NCBI RefSeq assembly: GCF_040954645.1
Contig: NC_092805.1
Location: forward strand, 72,835,186-72,899,185
Source of the DNA: Diabrotica undecimpunctata
Taxonomy: Eukaryota; Arthropoda; Insecta; Coleoptera; Chrysomelidae
Reading direction: 5' to 3'
DNA: 64,000 nucleotides
The translations under genes and the position numbers were made by a program. Shown in pieces: positions 3,709 to 63,692 of this stretch (positions are counted from its first letter, which is position 1; each line of letters begins with the position of its first letter). The notes under the pieces were generated by a model. That model was not told the DNA's origin and ran no database searches. It saw nothing but the letters and a program-made list of their open reading frames with translations.

Positions 3709-6090
3709 CTATATTTTTAATTTATATTTTAAAATGATATGTTCATTTCTGGAACAATAATTGTCCCTAAATAGCATCCATAGCTTTCTTGAACCAATAT
3801 GCATATAATTGTTATGTAAATTTATCAATATTTTCTTTGCTAAAGTTCTAGTTATTACATATACTTCTATGCCATTTATTATTTTATAATATACCCCATC
3901 TTTCCTAAGGACTTTTTGTTTTTCACTCAAATTGATCTGATCTCTTATAATTTCTTCTTTAGAATATAATCCAGTACTTTCTACTAATTGATTTAATCCA
4001 ATTTTTATTGTTCGCTGCCCTTTTTGTGGTATATTTTCTAACCTTGATAAAGCATCTGCCACTATATTGGATTTTCCAGAAATGTATTTGATTTCAAAGC
4101 AGTATTCACTAAGTATTAGACTCCACCGATGTATTCTACTGTTTCCATATTTGTTATTTAATATAGACGTTAAAGCTTGGTGATCTGTTTCTATTGTAAA
4201 TTCATTACCCAACAAATAAAATCTTAATTTTGTGACACAGTGTATTATACTTGCTAGTTCTAATTCTGAAACTGAGTAACCCTTTTCATGTGGCTTTGTA
4301 AGTCTTGAAATGAATTGTATTGGGTATTCGACCCCATCATGTATTTGTAATAATACCCCTGATAATCTCTCTATTGATGCATCTGTTCTTAATATGAATG
4401 GCTGTGTGTAGTCAGGATGGTATATTTTCAAATTTGACAAAAAAATGTTTTTAATTTCTTGGAATGCTAGTTCTCTTCTCTGATCCCATCTCCATTTTAC
4501 ACCTTTTCTCAGTAGTTCAAGTAATGGAATTTCTTTTATACTTAGATCTGGTATCATCCTTTTATAATAATTAATTATTCCAATAAATCCTCTTAAAGTT
4601 CTTAAATTGTGTGGTGTTTTATATTCCTGAATGACTTGTGTCCGTTCTGGATCCATTTCGATTCCCTTAGTGTTAAGTTTATAACCTAGATATATGACTT
4701 CTTTTTGAAAAAATGTACATTTTTCTTGATTTATTTTTAGTCCAACTTTGTCTAATCTATTTATTATAATTTTTAGGTGTTTCTCATGATCTTCAGCCGT
4801 TTTAGAAAAAATTAATATATCATCAATGTAGTGAATTACAAAATGTTCATATTGATCCAAAATATCATGAAGACATCTACATAGAGCACTGCAAGATGAT
4901 TGAAGTCCAAATGGTACTACTTTGAATTGATATACTACTCCATCTATCTGAAATCCTGTATACTGTCTACTTTTTCTTTCTAGAGGTATTAACCAAAAGC
5001 TATGCTGTAAATCAATTTTAGTGAAAAATGACATTCCAGTAATTCTTCCTAGTATTCCATCTATACTCATTGGTGCTTCAAATTGCTTTTCAGTGATCTT
5101 GTTAATATTCCTTCCATCCAAACATAACCTGATTTCACCTGATCTTTTACGCACTACTACTATAGGGTTGATAAAACGTGTATCTGCCTTCTCAATGATT
5201 CCATCTTCTAACATATTATTAATTGTTTTGTTTACTTCTTCTCTGTATTTATATGGTATTGGGTATGATTTTGTTTTAAAATCTTTTTCTTCTTTAACTT
5301 TTATACTATGGATATAATTTTGTGCAATTCTATTTTCTTTATTGACAAGTCCCTTGTGTTGCTGCAATATGGAAATGACTATTGATTTATATTCTTCAGG
5401 GCAATTTAAAACTTTTATCATATCTTCTTCTTTACAAATAAAATTATTCTTCATTATGTACTCATTATTCCTTGCTTCCAATTTTACGCACTCCGCCTCG
5501 TAGGCATCCATCTGCTTAAAATTTCCATTCCTTAAATATTCACTACAATAATTATTCTTTACATTCTTTTGGGACATTTCCCTATCATCAAAATACATTT
5601 CTTCTAATTAAACATCATTATTTTCTTTTAATAATATCCTATCAACTCTTATTCCTTCTTCTACCTCATCTTTCTGCATAAATTTAATTATTTGCCCTTC
5701 CAAAGTTACCATTTTTTCTTCAAAATCTATCTTTACTTTCTTCTTTTCCAATTCATCATTTCCCATTAATATATCAACACATAAATCCTTGACAATAAAT
5801 CCTTGCATATTAATTTCTTTATTAAGAATATTAATTTTAAAATTGGCTAGTTTATCAATTTCACCCAACTTCTTATTATTTGCACCAATAATTTTAATTT
5901 TTGGAATCTTTATTATATCTGATAGTTTTAATGTATTAAAAATAAAATTCTCCGAGACTAATGTACTTTCTGAACCAGTATCTATCATAATTTTAATCAT
6001 TTTATTTTTGGCCAAAGCATTTACTTGTAATTCAGAAAGTTTACTGCACAAAATTTTGATTATTAGAATTGTCAGATTGTATCTGACCAC
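3709..6090 (-). pseudogene. Ty3/gypsy Pol: protease, RT and RNase H; integrase lost
   Basis: One frame read on the minus strand, broken by a single in-frame TAA at 5608-5610. The upstream part (6090-5611) is an aspartic protease with MIDTGSESTLVS and the flap-side ILMGNDEL. The downstream 629 codons hold RT (FFTKIDLQHSFW; YIDD at ~257-260), then RNase H (LRTDAS, SELELASI, ETDHQAL). After a connection region comes the start of the integrase zinc finger (LHNNYMHIGSRKLW, ~590-605), where the frame stops. The rest of integrase and the 3' LTR are absent. The break lies ~50 bases from the left-hand BEL LTR, so the BEL insertion or a linked deletion probably removed them. The start overlaps the gag frame by ~50 bases, suggesting Gag-Pol frameshifting in the intact element. 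Confidence 0.85.
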
Positions 6091-22603: not shown

Positions 22604-24206
22604 TATATACAGATTGCCCAAAAACTTGTTTGTTTAAAATAAATTGAATTATTATCTTTTAAATTATATTTTTGTGTTTCTAACTTTTCTAAAATATCTT
22701 TAGTCTTTCTAAGGTTAATTGTATTAAGATTTATTGGTGAAAAATTTGAACTTTCATTTTGAAAAATATTAATAGAAGGAATAACTTTTGGAAGATTTAT
22801 ATGAGCAAAGTGACTTTTACTAATTTTTTCTGTTTGGAAGACTTCATTCTTGATTTTCACGGTACATTCAGGAACTGATTCTAAAACGTAGCTTCCATGT
22901 ATTGGTAAATTTGCTTTTGGGTTTGGGCACTCAATAATTGCTAATTCTTCTTCTGGAACTGTAACTATCTATTTTCCGTCGCTGATTCTTGTAGATTCTA
23001 TCTTCTTTATCTTTACTTCGAAATATTCACATGACAATGCCTTTTTCTTGAAATTTATTAATTGGACTGCACAAGGGGCTTCTTCGGTTATCGTTAGTCT
23101 ATTACTTCCTTTACATATGTACTCTTCTGAATCTATTTCTGTGCATATATCTTCCATGTAGATATAGCTAAATTCATTAAGTGCAAGGAAAGGTTTGTAA
23201 GGTAAATGAATAAGTTAATATGAGTTGTTCATAGGAATAGGAATAGGGAATAGCTGGTAATAATCATATATTTCCGATTCAACTAATGGAATCTCTAATA
23301 CAAATGTAATTATAGAATTTACTGAATAGCTCTTAATATTTATTATTTTCTCATACTGAATTATTTTTCCTAGTGTAGTATCAAAAGGCATTAATTTTGA
23401 CTTTGTCTGAGATTTTGCTTTCTTTATTTCATTTAAAAGTTCAATTGGATTTACTATAGAATTGTGCAAGGTATTTATTTTGGCAAATTAGATTGCAGTT
23501 TCTACTTTCTCAAAAATATCATAAATTGTTTGATAAAGTAAAGTAATTTGATTTATTACTATAAATGACTGAATATGTGTATACATACTTTTTTCAAATA
23601 AAGCTAATTTATTCTCTATAGCTTCAATTTTTGATTTCAAAATCAATTGATTATGTGAAATATTATTTATAGCATTATTAAAAGTATTTATAGAATCTTG
23701 CAATAAAGATATTTGTCTTAGGGAATTTACTTTTAAGTTACTTTGATTATCTTTTAATTGTTTTATTTCGTTTTCTATTCTTTGTGCGTCTTCTTGGTCC
23801 ATATTTCCTGTAATACATTTTATTATTGTTCCTAGAGGATTTAGAAGTCCAATTTTTATTCTATTTTCTTCCTTATACAAAGGTGGATTAATTTGATATA
23901 TCTGTTCTTCTATTTTATTTTGTAACGTAATTAAAGGGATAAATGAGTTTTCTAATTCTGGATAATAACTTGTTTGATTTTTGAAACTTGTGTGTAGTCT
24001 TTGAGCTTCATTTTTCAATAAATAAAATTCTTGTATGACAGAAGTTAAATTGTAAATTTGTATAAATGTCCAGTGTGTAGAAATTATTTTGGAGGTACCT
24101 AATCTAAAAGGTAGGAGTCCTGGATATGTAGTTACATCTTCAAACTTGACTAAGTTGTCTCTTGCGTTGATATAGTTGACTGCTCCGAAGATTCCGACGA
24201 TAAATC
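22604..24206 (-). pseudogene. Errantivirus-like Env (baculovirus F-type fusion protein), degraded
   Basis: One minus-strand frame with in-frame stops at 23488, 23215 and 22969, ending at the mariner junction. A TATTTCAG acceptor-like site at about 24207, inside the integrase end, fits expression from a spliced mRNA as in errantiviruses. The region after the putative furin/fusion-peptide area (around 23870-23800) has the GLLNPLGTIIK-type hydrophobic stretch known from F-like Env. A long amphipathic helix follows (to about 23490), then Cys-containing ectodomain sequence. Intact Env would be a membrane glycoprotein allowing cell-to-cell transfer; this copy is plainly non-functional. The remaining C-terminus is at 20404-20514. 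Confidence 0.78.
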
Positions 24207-25670
24207 TGAAATATTAGCCATTATTTTAGTTTCGTTTATGTGGACTATTATTTTCTTTGTATTCTTGGGATTTTCAATTTCTATTTTCCCATTTTCTAAT
24301 ATTTGTGTAAGTATATAAGGTCCAGTATATTTTCTACTTAATTTTCCTCCGCGAGTTTCTGTTTTTCTATAAACTTGTGATCCTAAACGAGGATCTTTTG
24401 AGTTTCTATCTTTATTTTTTTTTCCAATTATATTCTCTTTAAGTTTTTGATTTTCTTCTTGTATACTTGTATATAGAGCTTGAGTATTATTTTGATGTGC
24501 ATTAACATATTGAGTATAAGCTTGTGCTGGAATAAGTCTCATGGGATCTTTACTGTCTGTATGTCCCGATACTAATTCGAAAGGTGTATGACCAGTTGCT
24601 GAGTGTATAGTACTATTATAGGCAATAAGAGCATAAGGCATAATGGAAATATTATCTGCATCTTTATCTTTTTCTTTTAGTAATCTTAAGTGCTCAGTTA
24701 AGGTAGAATGGAATCTTTCTACCGGGGAATTAGATTCGTGATGATATGGAGTAGTAAAATGTATTTTTATTTGATGCGTTTTTAGTAATTCGTCTACAAC
24801 GTCATTTTTGAATTCTCCGCCACTATCTGCAACAACTTGTTTCGGTATTCCGAAAAATGAAAAGAAATGTACTAATTGTTGACACGCTGATATCGCTGTG
24901 CCAAAATATGGTAACGCTTGGTCATATTTTGAAAATTTATCTATAATTGTTAAAAATCTTTGATTGCCAACTTTATAAGTATCTATATGTATTATCTCAA
25001 AAGGCTTGGAGGGTGTGTGGGTTAATATTAAAGGTTCTTTATGTGGATTTCTATTATATTTTGATCTTTGGCATATCTCACATTCGTTTATATATTTTTC
25101 TATACCTTTTTTCATTGATTTCCAGTAGTAATTTATTTTTAAAGCTCTAAGAGTCTCTGAAATTCCTCGATGATTTGTTTTGCCGTCGTGCTTATATTTT
25201 ATTAGTTGATTTCTTTCTTCTGGCAATACATTGTTAACTAATTTTGTACATTCAATCAATTTTAATTTTGTAAAATATTTACGCCATACATTCTGAAATA
25301 TTGGTCGTAATTCTTGAGATAAGAAATAAATGTATAAAGTATTTTTGCACGCATTTTCTTTTAGGAATTGTGTCACACTTTCTTCGTCAGCTGAAATAGT
25401 AGCTCTTATTATTTTATGTCCTTCAAAATTCTCGCATTCGCGTTTTAAATAATTTGCAAAAGGCGCTCTCTTAACGATAAGTTGATAGGCTGTATTGTTT
25501 ATTATTTCATCCAACAATGAGAAACTATTTTCATTTGAAGATTCAGCACTATGGGCTGTATCTGTGTCTGAGTTATCCATTTCAACGTTTTCATTGTTCT
25601 TATTTCCTGTTGACATAATTTTATTTATTTGTGGGTTTTCTGTAACCTCATTGTTATCGAGAATTTGCAA
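24150..25670 (-). CDS. Errantivirus-like integrase (Pol C-terminal part)
   Basis: 506 open codons. An Asn/Glu-rich lead is followed by the HHCC zinc finger (KHDGKTNHRGIS...ECEICQRSKY) and the catalytic core with HIDTY (first Asp), VADSGGEF (second Asp) and SPVERFHSTLTEHLR (Glu). It ends with the GPY/F module (GGKLSRKYTGPYILTQIL) and a Ser-rich tail. It lies one frame away from the RT-RNase H block. The shift is explained by a ~31-bp duplication near 25850. Its end overlaps the env frame, as usual in errantiviruses. The 'start' at 25670 is only the first Met after the break; the frame reaches back to about 25830. Confidence 0.85.
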   Translation of the reverse strand: MQILDNNEVTENPQINKIMSTGNKNNENVEMDNSDTDTAHSAESSNENSFSLLDEIINNTAYQLIVKRAPFANYLKRECENFEGHKIIRATISADEESVTQFLKENACKNTLYIYFLSQELRPIFQNVWRKYFTKLKLIECTKLVNNVLPEERNQLIKYKHDGKTNHRGISETLRALKINYYWKSMKKGIEKYINECEICQRSKYNRNPHKEPLILTHTPSKPFEIIHIDTYKVGNQRFLTIIDKFSKYDQALPYFGTAISACQQLVHFFSFFGIPKQVVADSGGEFKNDVVDELLKTHQIKIHFTTPYHHESNSPVERFHSTLTEHLRLLKEKDKDADNISIMPYALIAYNSTIHSATGHTPFELVSGHTDSKDPMRLIPAQAYTQYVNAHQNNTQALYTSIQEENQKLKENIIGKKNKDRNSKDPRLGSQVYRKTETRGGKLSRKYTGPYILTQILENGKIEIENPKNTKKIIVHINETKIMANISDLSSESSEQSTISTQETT

Positions 25671-25840
25671 AGTTTTATTTACTACATTTTCATCAACTAT
25701 GTCTGGATTAAATTCAGTTAAAAATTGGTCGATATCAAAATCTATGTCACCGGGATTATTTATATTTGATTCTGTTTCAATTGCATTAATATTTATTCGA
25801 CTTAAAGAATAGGCAATATTCGTTTTACCGGGTTTATATT

Positions 25841-27960
25841 TTATAGTATTCTATAGTTTAGTATTAGTATTTTATAGTTAAATTCTTCTAATTTTAATCT
25901 CCATTGTAATAATTTGGAGTTGGGTTCCTTTAAATTAAATAACCATATTAGGGGTCTACGGTCGCATAAAATTTCAAAAGATCTGCCGTATAAATAAGGT
26001 CTAAATGTTTTACAAGCCCATACAATTGCTAAAAGTTCTTTTTCTATCGTAGAATATTTTTGCTCTGTTTGATTAAGAGTTCTTGAGGCATACGCTACAG
26101 GTAAATCATTTGGGACTTTTCCTTGTGACAAAATTGCACCTAAGGCTATATTTGAAGCGTCTGTAGTTAATATAAATGGTTTTGAAAAATCTGGATATTT
26201 TAAAATTGGAGCATTAATTAAAAGTTCTTTAAGATGATTAAAAGATTTTTTAAATTCTGGAGTGTGTATAACTTTTGCATGTTTCTTTAGACACATAGTT
26301 AAAGGTTTAGCTATTTTGGCGAAATTTTGGATAAATCTTCTGTAATATCCTGCTAATCCTAAAAATGACTTTATTTCTTTTTGTGTAGTAGGAATAGGAA
26401 AGTTTTTGACTGCATTTATTTTTTCTGGATTTGGTCGTACTCCGTCTTTTGTTATAATATGACCTAAATATGCCACTTCTGTTCGTAAAAATTCTGATTT
26501 ATCTAGCTGTATTTTTAAATTAGATTTTCTTAGTCTTTCAAAAATTGCTTTCAGTCTTTTAACATGTTCTTGCAATGATGAGGAAAAAACAATTATATCA
26601 TCTAAATATATATAGCATATTTCATTCTGATATCCTCTTAATACATTATTCATAACTTTCTGAAAAGTAGCTGGGGCATTTTTCAATCCAAACGGCATAC
26701 GTAAAAATTCATAATGTCCTGTCTCTGTGGAAAATGCTGTTTTTGGTACATCGGCTGGTTCCATTTCTATCTGGTGGAAACCATTTGCTAAATCTAAAGT
26801 AGTAAAATATTGAGCTCTTCCTAGACCATCTAGAATATTATCTATTAATGGCAAGGGAAATTTATTTTCTATTATATTTTCATTCAGTTTGCGGTAATCT
26901 ATAACTATTCTATATTTCTTTTGGTTACTTGCATCCATTTTCTTCTCTATTACCCAGATGGGTGAATTAAAAGGCGAGTTTGAATCTTGTATTATTACAT
27001 TTTTTAACATATCATTTATTTGTCTACTAACTTCTTTTTTATTAACTTCCGGATATCTGTAATTCCTTGTGTAAACCGGAGTATCATTAACTAAATCTAT
27101 TTTATGCTTTATTTCATTCGTAAAACTAAAGGGCGTTCCGTCTATATAAAAAATATCTCTATATTCATAACATAATTTACTTATAGCTTCGTATTCTTCT
27201 TTATTACAATGATTAAGTCTAAGTTTCTTGAGATTTTTTTTTTGTAGATAATCTATTTCTTCTTCTTCTATGTCCATCTCATCAATATGATATGACTGAA
27301 TATTATTTAAATTTTCTTCTTGAATATATTCTACATTAAAAGGTTCCGTAAATTTAATTTCCGCTGGAGTTTCTCCTAGGTTACTTATCATAGTAAAAGC
27401 GTTGTGATCATTTATCTCAATTAAACATGAAGGAATTTCTGCATTTCCGATTTTTGTATAATTTAGTATCGCTGTACCAGATCTTCTGTTAACTGGGACT
27501 TTAACTTTTTGAGCAGTTCTTGGTGGTATTATTATTTTACTAGGTTTAAAATATTTTTGTTTAGTTGGATCTTGTGATGTTAAAAATATTGGAAGAGAAA
27601 TGGTTGGGGTCTTTAGTTTTGAATCTTTAAAATCAATAATAGCATTGATTTGTGATAAAAAGTTGCATCCTAGCAAACCGTCAAAATTAGGAGAGAAATC
27701 GAAAAGATAAAATTTATGACAATTTGGATTTTTAAAACTAGGGAATATTGGAATGGTCATAGTTTCATTATGAATTGAAGTAGCGTGTGCAGTATGCACA
27801 GCAAATTGCTCAGGAATTATATATTTCGAGAAAAGTTCTCTTGCGAGGTCAGGTCTAAAAAAACTTTGTTCTGATCCTGTATCTATTAAAAATGTAGCAT
27901 TAATTTCTGGAATTATTATCTTAGGTAATTTATCATATTGTTTAATAGCATTAAAATTTA
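25841..27960 (-). pseudogene. Errantivirus-like protease, RT and RNase H
   Basis: The frame extends upstream of the first Met (27799) to about 27960 and includes the protease active site LIDTGSEQSFF (Asp codon 27883-27881), with the later GLLGCNFL motif. RT follows with YFTTLDLANGFHQIEM and YLDD (~398-401 from Met 27799). RNase H has LTTDASNIALGAI, STIEKELLAIVWA and LCDRRPLIW (the usual His after Asp is Arg). The frame ends at 25841 because of a short duplication (CTATAAAATA-type repeats); the connection to integrase continues in the +1 frame. Start overlaps the gag end by a frameshift-type junction. Confidence 0.85.
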
Positions 27961-28065
27961 TGTGGCTGTACTTGTTGAGGCTGGGACTGGAAAATTTTCA
28001 TCATTATATATTCTTCTTTCGTTTTCATTGCACCTTCTTAAATTATTATTATTATATGTATCCGA
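27958..28065 (-). pseudogene. Errantivirus-like Gag, C-terminal tail only
   Basis: About 35 codons (Asn/Arg-rich: NLRRCNENERRIYNDENF, then a Ser/Thr/Pro end) closing with TAA at 27958-27960, directly before the protease frame. This is the position and composition of the Gag end. Sequence right of ~28065 no longer resembles the element, so the rest of Gag and the 5' LTR are lost. Confidence 0.5.
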
Positions 28066-50616: not shown

Positions 50617-50995
<379 letters not shown>

Positions 50996-51080
50996 AGGTA
51001 CACTCGAAGAGTGGTGGGTTTTTCGGTCAAAGTGGAGAAATAAAAGACAAAGAAGGTGGCTACTTCATCTATTTATTGAA

Positions 51081-51114
51081 GACGTTTCGCTTTCTGCTCA
51101 GAAAGCATCATCGG
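51081..51114 (-). ncRNA. Hammerhead core, mutated
   Basis: Minus strand CCGATGA (consensus CTGATGA, one change in the core), stem II GCTTTCT/AGAAAGC perfect, GAAACGTC. The core change should cripple it. Confidence 0.6.
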
Positions 51115-52140
51115 TTCATCTAAAAAGAACAATATGAAACCAAACATCCATAGAGAAGTTACAACAAAAGTATGTTACCTTACAAAGACATGTAGCAGTC
51201 AATGATGTTAAAAATATGAAAAAACTTACGAAACTGGACATTCAGAGTTAACGTTGTATAAAATAATTAATTGAAACTAGGTATAGTTTGCAATTTAACA
51301 AAATTAGCACAGCAAAAGAACATGTGATAAAAATACATGTATAAAAAAGTTATTATAAAAACTTAAGTAAAAAACATTAAGGTTTATTTTAAAGTGTAAA
51401 GAACTAAAAAGATCATACGAAAGCACTTCCAACAAATTTATTTAATAAATTAGATTTTAATTTTAACTTTAGGTAACATTATAAGTTATTTAAGATTAAT
51501 AGTAATAAGATAAAATGACGTTACCAGTCTTTAGCTTACTGAGTCTCGCCGATAAATGAATTTACAGGTTTAACATCCACGCAAACACGTGAAGAGAAGT
51601 GGCCTTGAGGTCAAAGTGGCATAAACAGCAAGGCAACCTACCAACCTCTATATATAAGGCGGTATATTCAAAAAATGTGATAAATTTGGTTGACAGCTTG
51701 TCGTTAAAAAACCAAACAATGAAAGGAAAAGGTGGTTAAAATCACCACTCACCCCAACAGTGATTGATCTGTCAACAAAGAACAAAGCATGCGAAGTCAA
51801 TCCAAAATATCATATATTATAATATTATGACGTCACTAGTTAGCCAGCTAACAGGTGAAGATTAATACAACTTCCACAGTCCAAAGGTTCAAACATTTAG
51901 GACCGTAATGAAAAAGATTCTATGAATCCATTTCAGTTTAATTTTATCAAACAGGTTCATCAAAAAGAACAATTACTTAATTATGTAAAAGTGATATTGA
52001 CAAATATTAATAAAATATAAGTTGATAAATCTTAGTTAAGGAAGGAATAATTTATTTTATTTTTATTTAAATTTATTATATAAAAATGTAATAACAAAAC
52101 CCCAATGTGGGACAAAATTTAAGTAAAGAACATATCAAGC

Positions 52141-53400
52141 CTAATTCTGTAAAATTAATGCATGATCAATTTGACTCAAATTACTAATGTCGGTTCTCTT
52201 ATTAAGGGTATTAGGATGTTTTAATATTGAACACATTTCTAAAAACTGTCTTTTAACGAGATTGCGTTCAGTGCCAAGAATTTTAACTTCATTAAAGTTT
52301 ACTTCGTGCTTAGTGTTGATAGCATGTTGGGCAAGAGCACAAGTATGCTTAGATAAATTAATATCACTGCGGTGAGTCGTAAGACGCCCTCTCAGTGATC
52401 TCCCTGTCTGACCGATGTAACATGAGTCACACTCAGCACAAGGTATATGATATATTACATTAACTTGTTCCAGAAGGGACAGAGGTGTTTTAGCTTTAGA
52501 AAACAAATTCCTGACAGTCTTAGCATTCTTAATAGCAATTTTAACCGGTACGTTGTTATGTTTGTACAGTTTAACGAGTTTCTCAGTAACTTGAGGAAAA
52601 TAAGGTAAAGATGAGTAATGGGTAGTTGGATTCCCAAGTACAGTATAAGACAGAACAGTGTTATTAATTGAATTATTTGATATTATTCTGAGTTGGTCAC
52701 CATTGGGTATGTCATTTAAAGAAGAACCATAACTTTGAGTATAAAGGTATTTATTAATAAGGGAGGATGGATAGGAATTCTCAATCAGAATATTTTTAAG
52801 TAATTGAAAGGATTCCCTTCGATTAATCGGATGTATCAGTCTATTTAGCCTGCAGCTTAAAGCTTTAATAAGGTTTAATTTATATTTAAAGGGATGACAA
52901 GAGTGGTAGTTGAGAAACCTATTAGAGGCCATTGGTTTCCTGTACCAACTTGTAGTAAGGGTGTTATCTCCCATTCTAATGACACGCATGTCTAAGAAGG
53001 GAATACTATTTGTGTTAGAGTCCTCAAGTTCAACAGTGAACTGTAAATGAGGATCAAACTCATTGAAAAAAGACAAGGTGGCCTGAATCTTGTCTGGAGG
53101 TAAGGCTAGTAATAAGTCATCAACATACCGTTTAATAAAAGGGATTTGGAAATCTAAACGACCAAGCCGGTCAGATACTAAATCATCCAGTACATAATTA
53201 ACCAGGATGGGAGGGATTGAGGAACCCATAGGTGTCCCAAAAATTTGAAGGTATATTTGTCGTTGAAGACCAAAAAATTAGTGTCAAATATTAATTGTAA
53301 AAGTTCTGCAAATACATCCCAGGATACAGGACAGTTAGGTTGGATGTAGTTCCAGTGATTTCTTAAGGAGGTAATAACGCTATGTTGTTTACTTAAATTT
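52141..53400 (-). pseudogene. Penelope RT C-terminal half plus GIY-YIG endonuclease
   Basis: The main frame 53229-52141 (362 codons) starts at MGSSIPPILVNYVLDDL. RT motif C is KRYVDDLLLALPPDK (YVDD at 35-38). The thumb region has FTVELEDSNTNSIPFLDM and WYRKPMASNRFLNYHS. After a linker comes the GIY-YIG nuclease with the Penelope-type zinc-associated motif (IPCAECDSCYIGQTGRSLRG, about residue 258 on), then HTCALAQHA. Upstream RT sequence (VSWDVFAELLQLIFD, near 53330-53290) is in another frame joined through a shift near 53225, and nothing remains beyond ~53400. Non-autonomous now; the catalytic RT Asp pair and nuclease Arg/Tyr region are preserved. Confidence 0.85.
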
Positions 53401-54107
53401 TGTCCCACATTGGGGTTTTGTTATTACATTTTCATATAATAAATTTAAATAAAAATAAAATAAAATAAATTATTCCTTCCTTAACTAAGATTTATCAACT
53501 TATATTTTATTAATATTTGTCAATATCACTTTTACATAATTAAGTAATTGTTCTTTTTGATGAACCTGTTTGATAAAATTAAACTGAAATTGATTCATAG
53601 AATCTTTTTCATTACGGTCCTAAATGTTTGAACCTTTGGACTGTGGAAGTTGTATTAATCTTCACCTGTTAGCTGGCTAACTAGTGACGTCATAATATTA
53701 TAATATATGATATTTTGGATTGACTTCGCATGCTTTGTTCTTTGTTGACAGATCAATCACTGTTGGGGTGAGTGGTGATTTTAACCACCTTTTCCTTCCA
53801 TTGTTTGGTTTTTTAACGACAAGCTGTCAACCAAATTTATCACATTTTTTGAATATACCGCCTTATATATAGAGGTTGGTAGGTTGCCTTGCTGTTTATG
53901 TCACTTTGACCTCAAGGCCACTTCTCTTCACGTGTTTGCGTGAAGTTTCAATTAATTATTTTATACAACGTTAACTCTGAATGTCCAGTTTCGTAAGTTT
54001 TTTCATATTTTTAACATCATTGACTGCTACATGTCTTTGTAAGGTAACACACTTTTGTTGTAACTTCTCTATGGATGTTTGGTTTCATATTGTTCTTTTT
54101 AGATGAA

Positions 54108-54141
54108 CTGATGATGCTTTGTGAGCAGAAAGCGAAACGTC
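54108..54141 (+). ncRNA. Hammerhead ribozyme core
   Basis: CTGATGA, stem II GCTTTGT/AGAAAGC (one mismatch), GAAACGTC. ACGT forms the loop-less palindromic helix III; cleavage base C. Core conserved. Confidence 0.65.
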
Positions 54142-54252
54142 TTCAATAAATAGATGAAGTAGCCACCTTCTTTGTCTTTTATTTCTCCACTTTGACCGAA
54201 AAACCCACCACTCTTCGAGTGTACCTTAGTTTATTTTGGATTGACGGTCGTA

Positions 54253-54476: not shown

Positions 54477-55624
54477 TTCATCTAAAAAGAACAATATGAA
54501 AAAACCACACAAGCATGAAAAAGTTGTTACATGTGTTACCTTAAAAAGATATGTAGCAGTCAGTGATATTAAAATTGTAAAGACGCTTAAGTAAATGGAC
54601 ATTATACGATTACGATGTATAAACAATAAATTGAACTAAATAAAGTTAACAATTTGTTCAAACTAAGCACAGCTCAAAGAACATGTGTTTTTGTTATACA
54701 TGTACAAGTAAAAAAAAAAACATTGAAAAAGTGAATGAAGAAGTAAGAAAATCATAGATGCACTTCCAACAATATAGCAATAGTTATGATTTAATTTTAA
54801 CTTTAGGTAGCATTATAAGAGTAATTAATATTGAAATTGAATAATTTAATGTATAATGAAATTACCACTCCTGGCTTCTTGAATGCTACCGGTAAAATGG
54901 TGTTATATTAAAACAAACGCGCCAACAACGTGAAAAAACAGTAAACCTTGAGGTCATTAATTATGACAGAACAACAAGGTGAAATACCAACCCTAATAGT
55001 AGAACGGTTTATTTAAATAATAAGATGAGTTTGGGTGACAACCTGCTTGTAAGGAACCAATAAATGAAAGAAAAGGTGGTTAATAACACCAAATTTCCCC
55101 CAGTGATCGGTTAAGAAAAACAAACAAACAAGTGAGGTCAATCCAAAAACTCACATATAAATCGTCAACGTTGTGGCTGGTTAATCAGCCACAGGTAAAG
55201 ATCAATTATAACTTCCAACAGTCCAAGGTTCATACACTTAGAGCTGCAAATGATAAAGGATTCTATGAATCACATCATTTATATAACTGTATTAAACTAT
55301 TTGATTAAATGTATGTATATGCAACACGTGACTAGGTCAAAAGTAATGCAAGTTGCATAAGTAAGCTAATATAAGTAAGAAATATTTGTTATATTTTATT
55401 TTATATTTAAATTTATTTTATATGTTTATGTGTATGTGTGTATATGCAACGAGTGACTATGTCAAAAGTTACATAAGTGTAAGTTAATATAAGTAAGAAA
55501 TATTTCTTTGTTTTTTATTTTATTTAAATTTATTTTAATATGTTTATACGTATTTAAATTATTTAATAAGAAAATATGGTAAACCTGTACACCTTAAAGG
55601 ACAATAATAAGGTAAATAGCTTAT

Positions 55625-55838
55625 TAAGCCTTATTCTGCAATATTAAAGCATGATATATTTGTCTCAAGTTATTGATGTCTGTTCTTTTATAAAGAGCAT
55701 TAGGATGTTTAAGTATTGAACACATTTCCAAAAACTGTCTTTTGACGAGATTGCGTTCTGTGCCTAGAATCTTAATTTCATTAAAGTCTATCTTATGCTT
55801 GGTATTGATAGCATGCTGGGCAAGATTGAGCTGGGCTT
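55625..55838 (-). pseudogene. Penelope ORF, C-terminal scrap
   Basis: Homologous to 52141-52350 of copy A: the end of the GIY-YIG domain and the tail, from a HAINTKH-like motif to the terminal stop. Everything upstream has been lost. Confidence 0.7.
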
Positions 55839-56593
55839 AATTGTTTTTATTCAAATATTTGAATACAGTTATATAATTGATGTGATTCATAGAATCCTTT
55901 ATCATTTGCAGCTCCAAGTGTATGAACCTTGGATTGTTGGAAGTTATAATTGATCTTCACCTGTGGCTGATTCACCAGCCACAACGTTGACGATTAATAT
56001 ATGAGTTTTTGAATTGACCTCACTTGTTTGTTTGTTTTTCTTAACCGATTACTGGGGGAAATTGGGTGTTATTAACCACCTTTCCTTTTATTTATCGGTT
56101 CCTTACAAGCAGGTTGTCACCCAAACTCATCTTATCATTTAAATAAACCGCTCTACTATTAGGGTTGGTATTTCACCTTGTTGTTCTGTCATAATTAATG
56201 ACCTCAAGGTTTACTGTCTTTTCACGTTGTTGGCGTGTTTGTTTTAATATAACACCATTTTACCGGCAGAATTCAAGAAGCCAGGAGTGGTAATTTCATT
56301 ATACATTAAATTATTTAATTTCAATATTAATTACTCTAATAATGCTACCTAAAGTTAAAATTAAATCATAACTATTGCTATATTGTTGGAAGTGCATCTA
56401 TGATTTTCTTAGTTCTTCATTCTCTTTATCAATGTTTTTTTTACTTACACATGTATAAAAAAACCACATGTTCTTTTTGCTGTGCTTAGTTTAAACAAAT
56501 TGTTAACTTTATTTAGTTCAATTTATTGTTTATACATCGTAATCGTATAATGTCCATTTACTTAAGCGTCTTATATTGTTCTTTTTAGATGAA

Positions 56594-60804: not shown

Positions 60805-60966
60805 GCAAAGCCGTTCTGATGAGGCCTATTATGCCGAAATACATATAAGCGAATGCGCAAGCGCCCTGTACGTGAAATCAAATCTTAACTGTCTTTTCCT
60901 TCCTATTTATTTATAAGTTTACAGTTCGGTACTCTCTTCTTAACTAAACTCTACTCCTAACATCGT

Positions 60967-60970
<4 letters not shown>

Positions 60971-61046
<76 letters not shown>
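60971..61046. repeat. (TA)n microsatellite
   Basis: 76-bp run interrupting what may be LTR sequence (TGTAACG occurs on the minus strand on both sides). Confidence 0.97.
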
Positions 61047-61048
<2 letters not shown>

Positions 61049-61200
61049 AATAGTATTATTCTCGAATCTTCTGGGGCAGTCCCACCTCTAATTCGTCTCA
61101 TCGAAAGCGCATCGGGCGCTATTGAAATGCCAATTATTGCGTTTTCTAGATTTAAGCTTCTAAGAATTATGATGTATCGGAGATGGGCTGTTTCGTTACA
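61047..61200 (-). repeat. 3' LTR start of the macro-domain gypsy element (partial)
   Basis: The minus strand reads CTAAGAGGGGAGTAG (polypurine tract, 61201-61215), then TGTAACGAAACAGCCC, a standard tract-to-LTR junction. The LTR is cut off at the (TA)n tract. Confidence 0.6.
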
Positions 61201-61239
61201 CTACTCCCCTCTTAGATCTGAGCATCCCGATCTCTAGGC

Positions 61240-62500
61240 CTACAGATTCCGCCATCCTAGGCCTACAACTCCAGATGTAGGCCTAGGATGGCGGAATCTA
61301 CAGAGCTCTCCAGCTCTGCATGAACCCCTCAGAAAGAAATAACAGTCCACTGTCTTTGAAGGACACGATCTCTTCGGATTAATGCAACACACAGTAATTC
61401 TTACGCCGGTTTCTCAGAAGATCACTTCAAGCATGCTTCTGGCAATCTTTCAATCCAGATTATCTAGTGCATGGCCTATCCTGGGTAAGACCAAATTCTT
61501 GATGTCATAATTTTACACGATTTTCTTCAAATTAGTTAGAGCACGCCATATATCCTCGTAGCTTGCCCTGTCTGTATACGACTTCCTGGTCACCATATAC
61601 AGCAAAGATCGAGGGCCATCTTCTAATCTCAGTACTCTTCCAAATTTAGGCTGCTGATTTTTTAACTCATCTAAACGACCGAATTTCTTATAAAATACGG
61701 ATGAGATTCCTTTAGTCATCTCAAGATCTTGGGCAACACAGTGGGCTAGAGAGACGTTATGCGGAACACTAAAAAGATCCTGCTGAACTTCTGTGATCAC
61801 GCCGAATCTAGCACTCTTTCTCTCTGCGTAATTTGACATAAATTCATTAAAGCTTGGTCGCCGGTCATCTTTGATCTTATATTGAAGGGTTCGGGCTTCT
61901 TCTGTTTCATTTGAGCCAGCATAAGGTGCAAGACGATTGATGTGAACTACTTTTGGTTTACCTTTCGGCAACTTCTTAATTCGGTATATTACGTCATTTA
62001 TTCTCTTTGTAATTTCATACGGACCCTCCCATTGTCTTTGCAGTTTAGGAGACAAGCCACGACGACGTTGTGAATTATAAAGCCAAACAAGATCACCTAC
62101 TTCATAGCTTTCATTCTTGCATCGAAAATCATATTGATCTTTCATCCTGTCACTGGCTAACTGGATGTGTTGTCGGGCAAGTTCATGAATGTTGTTCATT
62201 CTTAACTTCAAGCGGTCGACATAATCTTCGCTTGCAACATGTTCTTCGGAAGGTCTGCAACCAAACTCTAGTTCGCAGGACAAACGAACTTCACGACCTA
62301 ACATCAGGCAGGTTGGAGTCTGGCCTGTAGTTTCATTCACGGCCGAGCGGTAGGCCATTAGGAATAAATGAATGTGATGGTCCCAATCTCTTTAATGTTC
62401 TAATACAACTTTGGACAGGTGTTTACCCATCGTTCGGTTCATTCTCTCGACCATTCCATCTGATTAAGGATGCAGGGGTGTCGTTCTGGTCTTATTGACA
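61240..62500 (-). pseudogene. Gypsy Pol C-terminus: integrase end, macro domain, CCCH zinc finger
   Basis: The 62358-61516 frame is open for 281 codons. It holds the integrase C-terminal part (YEVGDLVWLYNSQRRRG, WEGPYEITKRINDVIYRI, VVHINRLAPY) up to residue ~150, then a linker. From ~187 an OARD1/TARG1-type macro domain follows: VITEVQQDLFSVPHNVSLAH, MTKGISSVFYKKFGRLDEL, LYMVTRK. The same frame continues past stops at 61513, 61450 and 61414 with VLPRIGHALDNLD, which keeps the Asp of the family's second catalytic site. The catalytic Lys position of TARG1 appears to be Arg-Lys here. At 61344-61288 is a CCCH finger (CYFFLRGSCRAGELCRFRH, C-x7-C-x5-C-x3-H), and the frame ends at TAG 61240. It is a decayed copy of a Pol with an unusual accessory tail. 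Confidence 0.78.
61244..61299. repeat. Perfect 24-bp palindrome at the pol end
   Basis: AGATTCCGCCATCCTAGGCC... at 61244-61267 is exactly inverted at 61276-61299, with loop ACTCCAGA. The right arm encodes the last part of the CCCH finger, the left arm the final residues of the frame. Confidence 0.92.
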
Positions 62501-63692
62501 CCAATCAAGGGTTGACTCGAAGTTTCGCCCTTGGTCGGAGTGGATCTCCAAAGGAACACCAAATCGGCTGAAGAATTCTTTAACAAGTACCTCTGCAACG
62601 GTAGCAGCTTCTTGATTTGGTATCACGTAGGCCTCAGTCCATTTCGTAAAATAATCTATAGCTACCAGGATATATTTATTTCCATCATTCGTCTCTGGAA
62701 GTGGACCTGCAATGTCGATTGCTATTCTTTCCATAGGACTACCAATATTGTACTGTTTCATGGGTGCTCTCTTTTTACCAACTGGACCATTACTGGTTGC
62801 ACACAGTTCACATTTCCGGCACCATCTTCTTACATCATCCTTACAGTTCACCCAATAGAACCGTTCTCGAACCTTTTGCAGAGTCTTCGTAATACCAAAG
62901 TGTCCACCTGATGCACAGTCATGAAACTGACGCAATACTTTTGACACTTTACTTTTAGGTACAATCAACTGAAGCTTGGTTTATTTACAATCATCATTTT
63001 CAAAGGTTCTATACAGAAGATCATCTTTCAGCACTAGGCAATTCCATTGGCTCCAGTAACACTTGACTTCGGGACTACATGCACTAATGTCTTGCCAAGA
63101 AGGTCTTTCACTTCGACGCATCCAATCCAATACCCTTTTTATACATAGACCATCTGCTTGAGCGTCTTGTAGCTGTTGAGGCTGCCATTGATCATTAATG
63201 ACGGTGGTTCGTCTCACGGGGCAAAGTCGTTCTTCTAATTTAAGACAGTGATTACAATTTGCACTGCACGGCCGTCTTGAAAGGGAATCAGCATTTAAAT
63301 GAACTCTTCCAGCCCTGTGTTCGATCTCGTAATCATATTCTTGTAATCGTTCTAACCATCTTGCCATCTGGCCCTCTGGATTACGAAATTGTAGGAGCCA
63401 TTTTAGAGCAGCGTGATCCGTGCGAAGAAGAAACTTTCTGCCATACAAGTATTTATGTAAATGCTTGCAAGCCTTCACTACGCCTAGCAATTATCTCCTG
63501 GTAACGCAATAGCTTCTTTCTGGTTTCGACAAGAATTTGCTGAAGTAAGCGATGACTTTCTCCTGCCCATCTTGGATTTGGGAAAGAACAGCTCCTATTG
63601 CACTGTTGCTTGCATCGGTGTCCAACACAAATTTTCCTGCCTGCCTGTCTAGGGTAGCTTAAAATCGGTGCGCTGATCAAAGCCATTTGTAA
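62390..63692 (-). pseudogene. Gypsy Pol: RNase H end, connection and integrase
   Basis: Enters at 63692 (LISAPILSYP) and is soon shifted by an AGGC duplication near 63650. RNase H is visible: FVLDTDASNSAIGAVLS, then a TAA for the Glu of CVTRRE near 63487, then LRTDHAALKWLLQFRNPEGQ. A Cys-rich linker follows (RRPCSANCNHCLKLEE). A TAA at 62981 precedes integrase: GGHFGITKTLQKVRERFYW, CRKCELCATS (HHCC), IAIDIAGPLP, EIHSDQGRNFES. The Glu block SDGMVERMNRTM is in another frame after a shift near 62500, with two more stops before 62358. The clade matches the relic at 33330-37262. Confidence 0.82.

Follow-up and report, generated by a model that had tools for sequence, protein, structure and literature searches.

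A TARG1-like macro domain and a CCCH finger behind the integrase in a multicopy Ty3/gypsy family of Diabrotica undecimpunctata

In a 64-kb stretch of the Diabrotica undecimpunctata genome (assembly locus G000:C3:72835186-72899185; here the window, whose own positions serve as coordinates), the minus strand carries at 62358-61240 a degraded 3' portion of a single member of a multicopy Ty3/gypsy retrotransposon family, in which Pol ends in the order integrase, linker, macro domain and CCCH zinc finger. The macro domain is of the type found in TARG1/OARD1 (C6orf130), the terminal ADP-ribose glycohydrolase. The explanation that we prefer, and hold to be moderately probable as a whole, is that a TARG1-type domain was captured a single time, has stayed a hydrolase in most lineages and has become a non-hydrolysing module in the genome studied here. 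Below, we describe the window copy, its relatives in the same genome and among public proteins, and the trees, selection estimates and active-site comparisons that bear on this explanation.

An earlier note, made from the letters of the window, had read the interval as an integrase passing in frame into the macro domain and the finger. The plus frame of 61240-62358 is riddled with stops, while a single minus-strand frame, followed from 62358 down to 61240, runs through the integrase C-terminal SH3/p58_C module, the linker, the macro domain, the CCCH finger and a stop. The proposed order therefore stands on the minus strand, the continuity of the frame does not, since three in-frame stops interrupt it, and the VLPRIGHALD motif of the macro domain sits behind the first of them. 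The finger is followed by a stop, a purine tract and the long terminal repeat (LTR). The features of the element are these.

61513-62391, minus strand: open frame with the integrase C-terminal part, the linker and the first two thirds of the macro domain; ATG at 62358
61921-62097, minus strand: integrase C-terminal SH3/p58_C (GPY/F-type) module (PF22938, expectation value (E) 1.4e-13; PF24626, E 2.2e-8)
61798-61920, minus strand: linker with PSFNEFMSNYAERKSARFG, a stretch recognisable in finger-bearing relatives
61384-61797, minus strand: TARG1/OARD1-type macro domain, with 3 stop codons in the window copy
61513-61515, minus strand: first in-frame stop (TAA), inside the macro domain
61450-61452, minus strand: second in-frame stop (TGA)
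61414-61416, minus strand: third in-frame stop (TGA)
61288-61344, minus strand: CCCH finger CYFFLRGSCRAGELCRFRH, C-x7-C-x5-C-x3-H, the same motif occurring in relatives
61240-61242, minus strand: terminal stop codon of the module in the window copy
61207-61219, minus strand: polypurine tract, directly before the 3' LTR
60867-61206, minus strand: 3' LTR, TGTAACG (from 61206) to GTACA, with an AT microsatellite inside; lower end set by eye from other copies
62492-62968, minus strand: integrase zinc-binding (H2C2) and core (rve) piece, in a frame different from that of 61513-62391 (PF17921, E 2.8e-21; PF00665, E 2.9e-13)
62981-63490, minus strand: RNase H piece of the same element (PF17917, E 3.8e-14)

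The RNase H and integrase-core pieces occupy separate open frames upstream of the integrase C-terminus, and a reverse transcriptase (RT) piece of the same copy (L073), 74% identical to the public relative P0002, lies further upstream, outside the window, at a greater distance from RNase H than in P0002. The Ty3/gypsy Pol order of RT, RNase H and integrase is thus seen from the window pieces together with the upstream RT, and in full in relatives, and the window copy itself has the LTR and polypurine tract. Its 5' LTR also lies outside the window, where it is cut short beside gag-like sequence (a context judged by eye), and the two LTRs are 93.75% identical over 144 alignable bp. With its three in-frame stops and other damage, the copy looks like an old, dead element. 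A 27-nt inverted repeat with a 2-nt spacer crosses its last codons (61244-61299); it was not seen in the other copies aligned and looks like a local inverted duplication.

That this arrangement belongs to a family was established in the 1.74-Gb assembly. The 97-residue macro piece that precedes the first stop gave 4,934 first-look candidates, and all of the best 150, which were scored, matched, 149 without an internal stop and many within open frames of 1,413-1,866 codons; a macro-plus-finger query taken from P0002 gave 5,566 candidates, and every one of the best 150 scored reached the finger without a stop. Both lists are confined to the best-scoring places; a less biased sample of 30 copies was chosen by integrase DNA. 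The macro domain and finger lie directly behind the integrase in 29 of these 30, in 27 at an identical spacing of 134 bases; L051 is shifted by two bases, L072 has a partial macro domain and L049 a partial finger, and L066 has neither domain in the stretch examined. The domain is free of indels in 20 of the 30 copies, and free of both indels and stops in 17. The view of the earlier note that the macro domain lies inside the element and is no chance neighbour is borne out by these copies and by the eleven public proteins described next; it had named copies lacking the domain as the finding that would speak against it, and 29 of 30 have it, one (L072) in part.

Three protein searches returned P0001, a 180-residue 'OARD1-like' protein of Diabrotica virgifera with 78% identity over the scored part, and P0002-P0014. 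An integrase p58_C module is followed by the macro domain in eleven of them (P0002-P0004, P0006-P0011, P0013 and P0014), identity to the window module being 52% for P0002, 50% for P0003 and 44% for P0004. The finger motif, C-x(7-8)-C-x5-C-x3-H, is found in the window, in all six own-genome modules scanned and in six of the eleven relatives; PF00642 is over its cut-off in P0002, P0003 and P0006, and just under it in P0008. P0009 ends near the first finger cysteine, and P0013, whose macro domain is missing its beginning, has Arg in place of the last His of the finger. P0009 and P0013 come from Callosobruchus maculatus, and P0003 and P0010 from an Erysiphe pulchra assembly; presence in contigs of this powdery mildew assembly could be contamination or transfer. 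Beyond the finger, P0003 runs on into weak matches to Ty3-capsid and CCHC profiles, both below Pfam cut-offs.

Two further proteins from these searches stand apart. P0012, from Tenebrio, has no Pfam match and looks like a host gene; its best own-genome match is a host-type OARD1 at a separate locus (G000:C3:100934197-100934616; L011/L023). This host-type gene sits in a 760-codon frame, far longer than human TARG1, and P0012 has 950 residues. P0005 (1709 residues) resembles the family in carrying a TARG1-type domain with a full catalytic signature in a Ty3/gypsy-type Pol, and differs from it in having the macro domain between RNase H and integrase, without a finger. Because of this layout and an integrase very distant from the others in the integrase tree, P0005 is probably a separate, independent capture. 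A scan of IMG/VR with the module alignment gave 51 pattern matches and no relatives.

The domain is TARG1-like in sequence and, according to structure models, in fold, as the earlier note had proposed. Residues 4-94 of the 97-residue window piece match human OARD1/TARG1 (4j5r) with E 7e-18. An AlphaFold model of the P0002 module has a predicted local distance difference test (pLDDT) score mostly >90 over the macro domain, and its best match in the PDB is TARG1 (4j5s), with a template modelling (TM) score of 0.95 by TARG1 length and 0.60 by model length, at 1.0 A and 44% identity; TARG1 entries come first among the matches and DarG next. A model of a second subfamily from the same genome also has the TARG1 fold (TM 0.92 by TARG1 length and 0.68, 33% identity). 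The fold of the window's own subfamily is taken from these two models. The element domains can be told from host-type ones by a loop that reads MSRGIA/MSKGIA or MTKGIS in the former and MGAGIA or MGSGIA in the latter.

In the macro-domain tree that the earlier note had called for, built with 17 rows, 13 integrase-fused domains form one side of a branch with support 98/97, and human TARG1, the host-type gene of the same genome, Tenebrio P0012 and P0005 lie on the opposite side; with 22 rows, support for the integrase-fused clade is 93/95. Four groups of the integrase tree, namely P0002/P0003/P0006, P0004/P0007, the three finger-less proteins (87/97) and the window with L004, recur in the macro tree. 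Pairwise identities of the macro domain and of the integrase, compared among ten public proteins (45 pairs), show a correlation of 0.82, the macro domain being the less identical in all 45. A capture from an OARD1-like gene fits these trees; the domain was probably taken up once by an ancestor and, as judged from the shared groups and identities, the module diverged together with the integrase afterwards. A recent capture from the genome's own OARD1-type gene was rejected, as the trees join the element domains with one another; in an approximately unbiased (AU) test, forcing two own-genome element domains and the Diabrotica one together with the host-type gene gave p 0.062, and this arrangement is not formally rejected.

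In the window subfamily, purifying selection appears to maintain the macro domain. Among the 20 indel-free copies of the integrase-chosen sample, the proportion of synonymous differences (pS) is 0.110 and that of nonsynonymous differences (pN) 0.023, giving a pN/pS of 0.21 (codon bootstrap 0.14-0.32), a figure to be taken as indicative since pairs are non-independent and copies with macro indels were omitted; shifted off frame, these bases give ratios of 1.44 and 1.54. For the integrase C-terminus, pN/pS is 0.39 (0.25-0.62) in 29 of the 30 copies (L070 being excluded for an indel), with 1.23 and 0.87 off frame, and for the linker of this sample it is 0.72, with a wide interval (0.49-1.16). Earlier samples, chosen by macro score, gave 0.34 for macro domain and finger together (19 distinct sequences) and 0.28 for the macro domain (12 copies). 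An offset-based integrase control of 0.75 (0.62-0.89) was set aside, unaligned copies being thought to shift the frame, as L051 does by two bases. Between the two own-genome subfamilies dN/dS is saturated (pS 0.82).

Whether the module could still act as an enzyme depends on a handful of residues. In TARG1, Lys84 is the nucleophile and Asp125 the hydrolysing residue, and passages of the same source give the signature TKx(30,35)Px[IL]GxGxD (PMC6397177). This signature is present in human TARG1, the host-type OARD1 gene, P0012, P0005 and nine of the eleven integrase-macro relatives; it is missing from P0009 and P0013, from P0001 and from all six element modules scanned in the own genome. The window subfamily has TRK in place of TKK, so that Lys84 is Arg, a change it has in common with P0001, and keeps GHALD. 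The second subfamily (L029-L034, whose matches lie in open frames 268 to 1,866 codons long) has SLALTIPASIKDAPGLA and PKLECRQLD at the expected ligand loops and keeps the frame and the finger. These two subfamilies were found among the best-scoring places listed, and further ones may exist. As the signature is intact in nine of eleven relatives, the captured ancestral domain was probably of the hydrolase type, and to this extent the 'captured ADP-ribose hydrolase' of the earlier note is likely to be right about the origin; it does not carry over to the window copy and its subfamily, which are without the signature, and hydrolase activity was rejected as the default there.

Our preferred explanation is accordingly one of gain followed by partial loss of function, in which both the biochemistry of the module and its benefit to the element are inferred. 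An ancestor would have acquired a domain of OARD1/TARG1 type behind its integrase, probably in a single event. In most sampled lineages the catalytic residues are kept, and the module probably removes ADP-ribose, the putative targets being proteins or nucleic acid of the element itself, or host proteins near the integration complex. In the own genome, where the two subfamilies found lack the signature and that of the window is under purifying selection, binding is favoured over hydrolysis; the module would most likely be non-hydrolysing and, tethered to the integrase, would bind ADP-ribose, nucleic acid or a modified protein, with the finger adding a contact to RNA or DNA. A TARG1-type domain in this place could protect cDNA ends, clean the integrase or its neighbours, or read ADP-ribosylated chromatin in the way that chromodomains recognise histone marks (PMC3605345); TARG1 itself is described as taking ADP-ribose off acidic residues and off the terminal phosphates of both DNA and RNA, as binding RNA, and as gathering at damaged DNA, in a poly(ADP-ribose) (PAR)-dependent manner, and in nucleoli (PMC8053099, in part).

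Several observations weigh against this explanation. Pfam Macro (PF01661), the profile that the earlier note had suggested for a check, does not match the window piece; among the eleven integrase-macro relatives it reaches its cut-off (22 bits) in two (P0008, P0010), falls just under it in two (P0004, P0011) and gives no match at E 0.01 in seven, while P0005 reaches the cut-off. With PF01661 weak or silent, identification of the macro domain rests on TARG1 sequence and structure. The finger is less secure: its pLDDT is <50, low confidence, in both models, three of the eleven relatives (P0010, P0011 and P0014) are without it, and its pN/pS of 0.50 (0.26-1.16) gives no clear sign of selection, the finger tail reaching 1.24 in the earlier sample of 12 copies. 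The omission of indel-bearing copies bears on the macro estimate itself. In the second subfamily, which lacks the loop residues that would hold ADP-ribose, even binding is doubtful. In the integrase tree the window subfamily falls together with the P0002 group (98/96), a junction that the macro trees do not resolve, and with one human and two insect host-type rows, the trees give at most a tentative view of the donor, the age and even the single capture.

Other explanations can be set against the same evidence. That a host OARD1 was fused once at the window locus and persists as passenger sequence, by chance read-through, would suit a copy broken by three stops and other damage; we find it scarcely credible, since a fusion private to this locus is rejected by the many copies and distant relatives that share the order, the macro domain is under purifying selection, and the host-type OARD1 lies elsewhere. 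Improbable, to a lesser degree, is a relic that mattered in the ancestor and is merely tolerated here. The loss of the signature in both own-genome subfamilies found and the lower identity of the macro domain than of the integrase would agree with it, yet the macro pN/pS in the window subfamily is no weaker a constraint than that on the integrase C-terminus, and open frames are kept in many copies.

We regard as possible, without leaning towards it, that the module mainly serves counter-defence, reversing host ADP-ribosylation of protein, cDNA ends or RNA as viral macrodomains do. We know of no ADP-ribosylation-based restriction of insect retrotransposons, which counts against this idea, as does the loss of Lys84 or of the pocket in the two own-genome subfamilies while the domain of the window subfamily is still constrained. 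The signature kept in nine of eleven relatives speaks for it, as do the substrates reported for TARG1 (PMC8053099), the TARG1-like folds of insect viruses such as VP8 of Kadipiro virus (40% identity) and, from passages of PMC4245714, Tribolium proteins of the PARP7/11/12/13 branch. Doubtful in our judgement is a pure integration-site reader, in which the macro domain guides the integrase to ADP-ribosylated chromatin at broken DNA or in nucleoli as a chromodomain might. Catalysis lost under continued purifying selection fits such a role, as do the position in Pol, the same as that of the chromodomain of chromoviruses (PMC3605345), and the accumulation of TARG1 at damaged DNA and in nucleoli; the ADP-ribose loops of the second subfamily, however, look ruined, and most relatives retain catalytic residues that would be superfluous in a reader. 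Work on chikungunya virus in mosquitoes points both ways: the preprint concludes that ADP-ribose binding matters and hydrolysis does not, and also describes replication in mosquito cells as unchanged and the effects in the insects themselves as mixed (PMC12632316, in part). A broader conception, which we offer tentatively and think unlikely as it stands, is an ADP-ribose-reading integrase, in which a TARG1 captured into the place of the chromodomain would link integration or cDNA protection to host ADP-ribosylation, first as an eraser and then, in the present beetle genome, as a catalytically dead reader.

Set beside known systems, the element domain shares with TARG1 the macro fold, the core motifs and, in nine of eleven relatives, the signature, and differs in sitting within a retrotransposon Pol and, in the window subfamily, in the replacement of Lys84. 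With chromoviruses the family shares the Ty3/gypsy Pol order and an extra domain behind the integrase (PMC3605345, in part). It differs from them in that this is a macro domain with a CCCH finger; Pfam scans of the window piece and the relatives found no chromodomain, whose place the macro domain occupies. Macro domains of RNA viruses (Kadipiro VP8, flavi- and virga-like viruses of thrips, alphaviruses) are likewise encoded by parasitic genomes, whereas that of the present family is fused behind an LTR-element integrase; those of alphaviruses stand further off in fold, at 16-19% identity among the best PDB rows, and insect-restricted alphaviruses are described as losing macro catalytic residues (PMC7729036). 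TARG1-like homologues in viral genomes have been noted (PMC4245714), and the best viral fold match here is TARG1-like VP8 of Kadipiro virus (A0A8E0KJF2; 40%), followed by a flavi-like virus protein of thrips (33%). In line with the earlier note, which knew of no standard Ty3/gypsy lineage with this pair of domains, no paper describing a Ty3/gypsy element with a macro domain was among those listed, as judged by titles and abstracts, in targeted searches of an open full-text library, one of which listed 30 of 11,723 papers; subscription journals and repeat libraries lie outside these searches.

Elsewhere in the window, the minus strand has further retroelement frames at 3-2558 (DUF1759), 3712-5607 (RT-RNase H) and 24153-27997 (RT-RNase H and integrase), and a tblastn search of the 64 kb with three macro queries found no second macro domain. 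Long inverted repeats at 54713-56442 and 50988-54234 (597 nt at 95%, 513 nt at 97% and 291 nt at 99%) resemble foldback or terminal-inverted-repeat elements.

For the annotation of insect genomes, the family is a caution, as the OARD1-like gene model P0001 of Diabrotica is probably a piece of a retrotransposon. It also provides one domain, on one scaffold, in natural forms with and without the signature, and brings within reach of experiment the question whether the integration of insect retrotransposons is limited or guided by ADP-ribosylation. If our explanation is true, LTR retrotransposons would have taken up ADP-ribosylation machinery that has so far been discussed for RNA viruses, phages and hosts.
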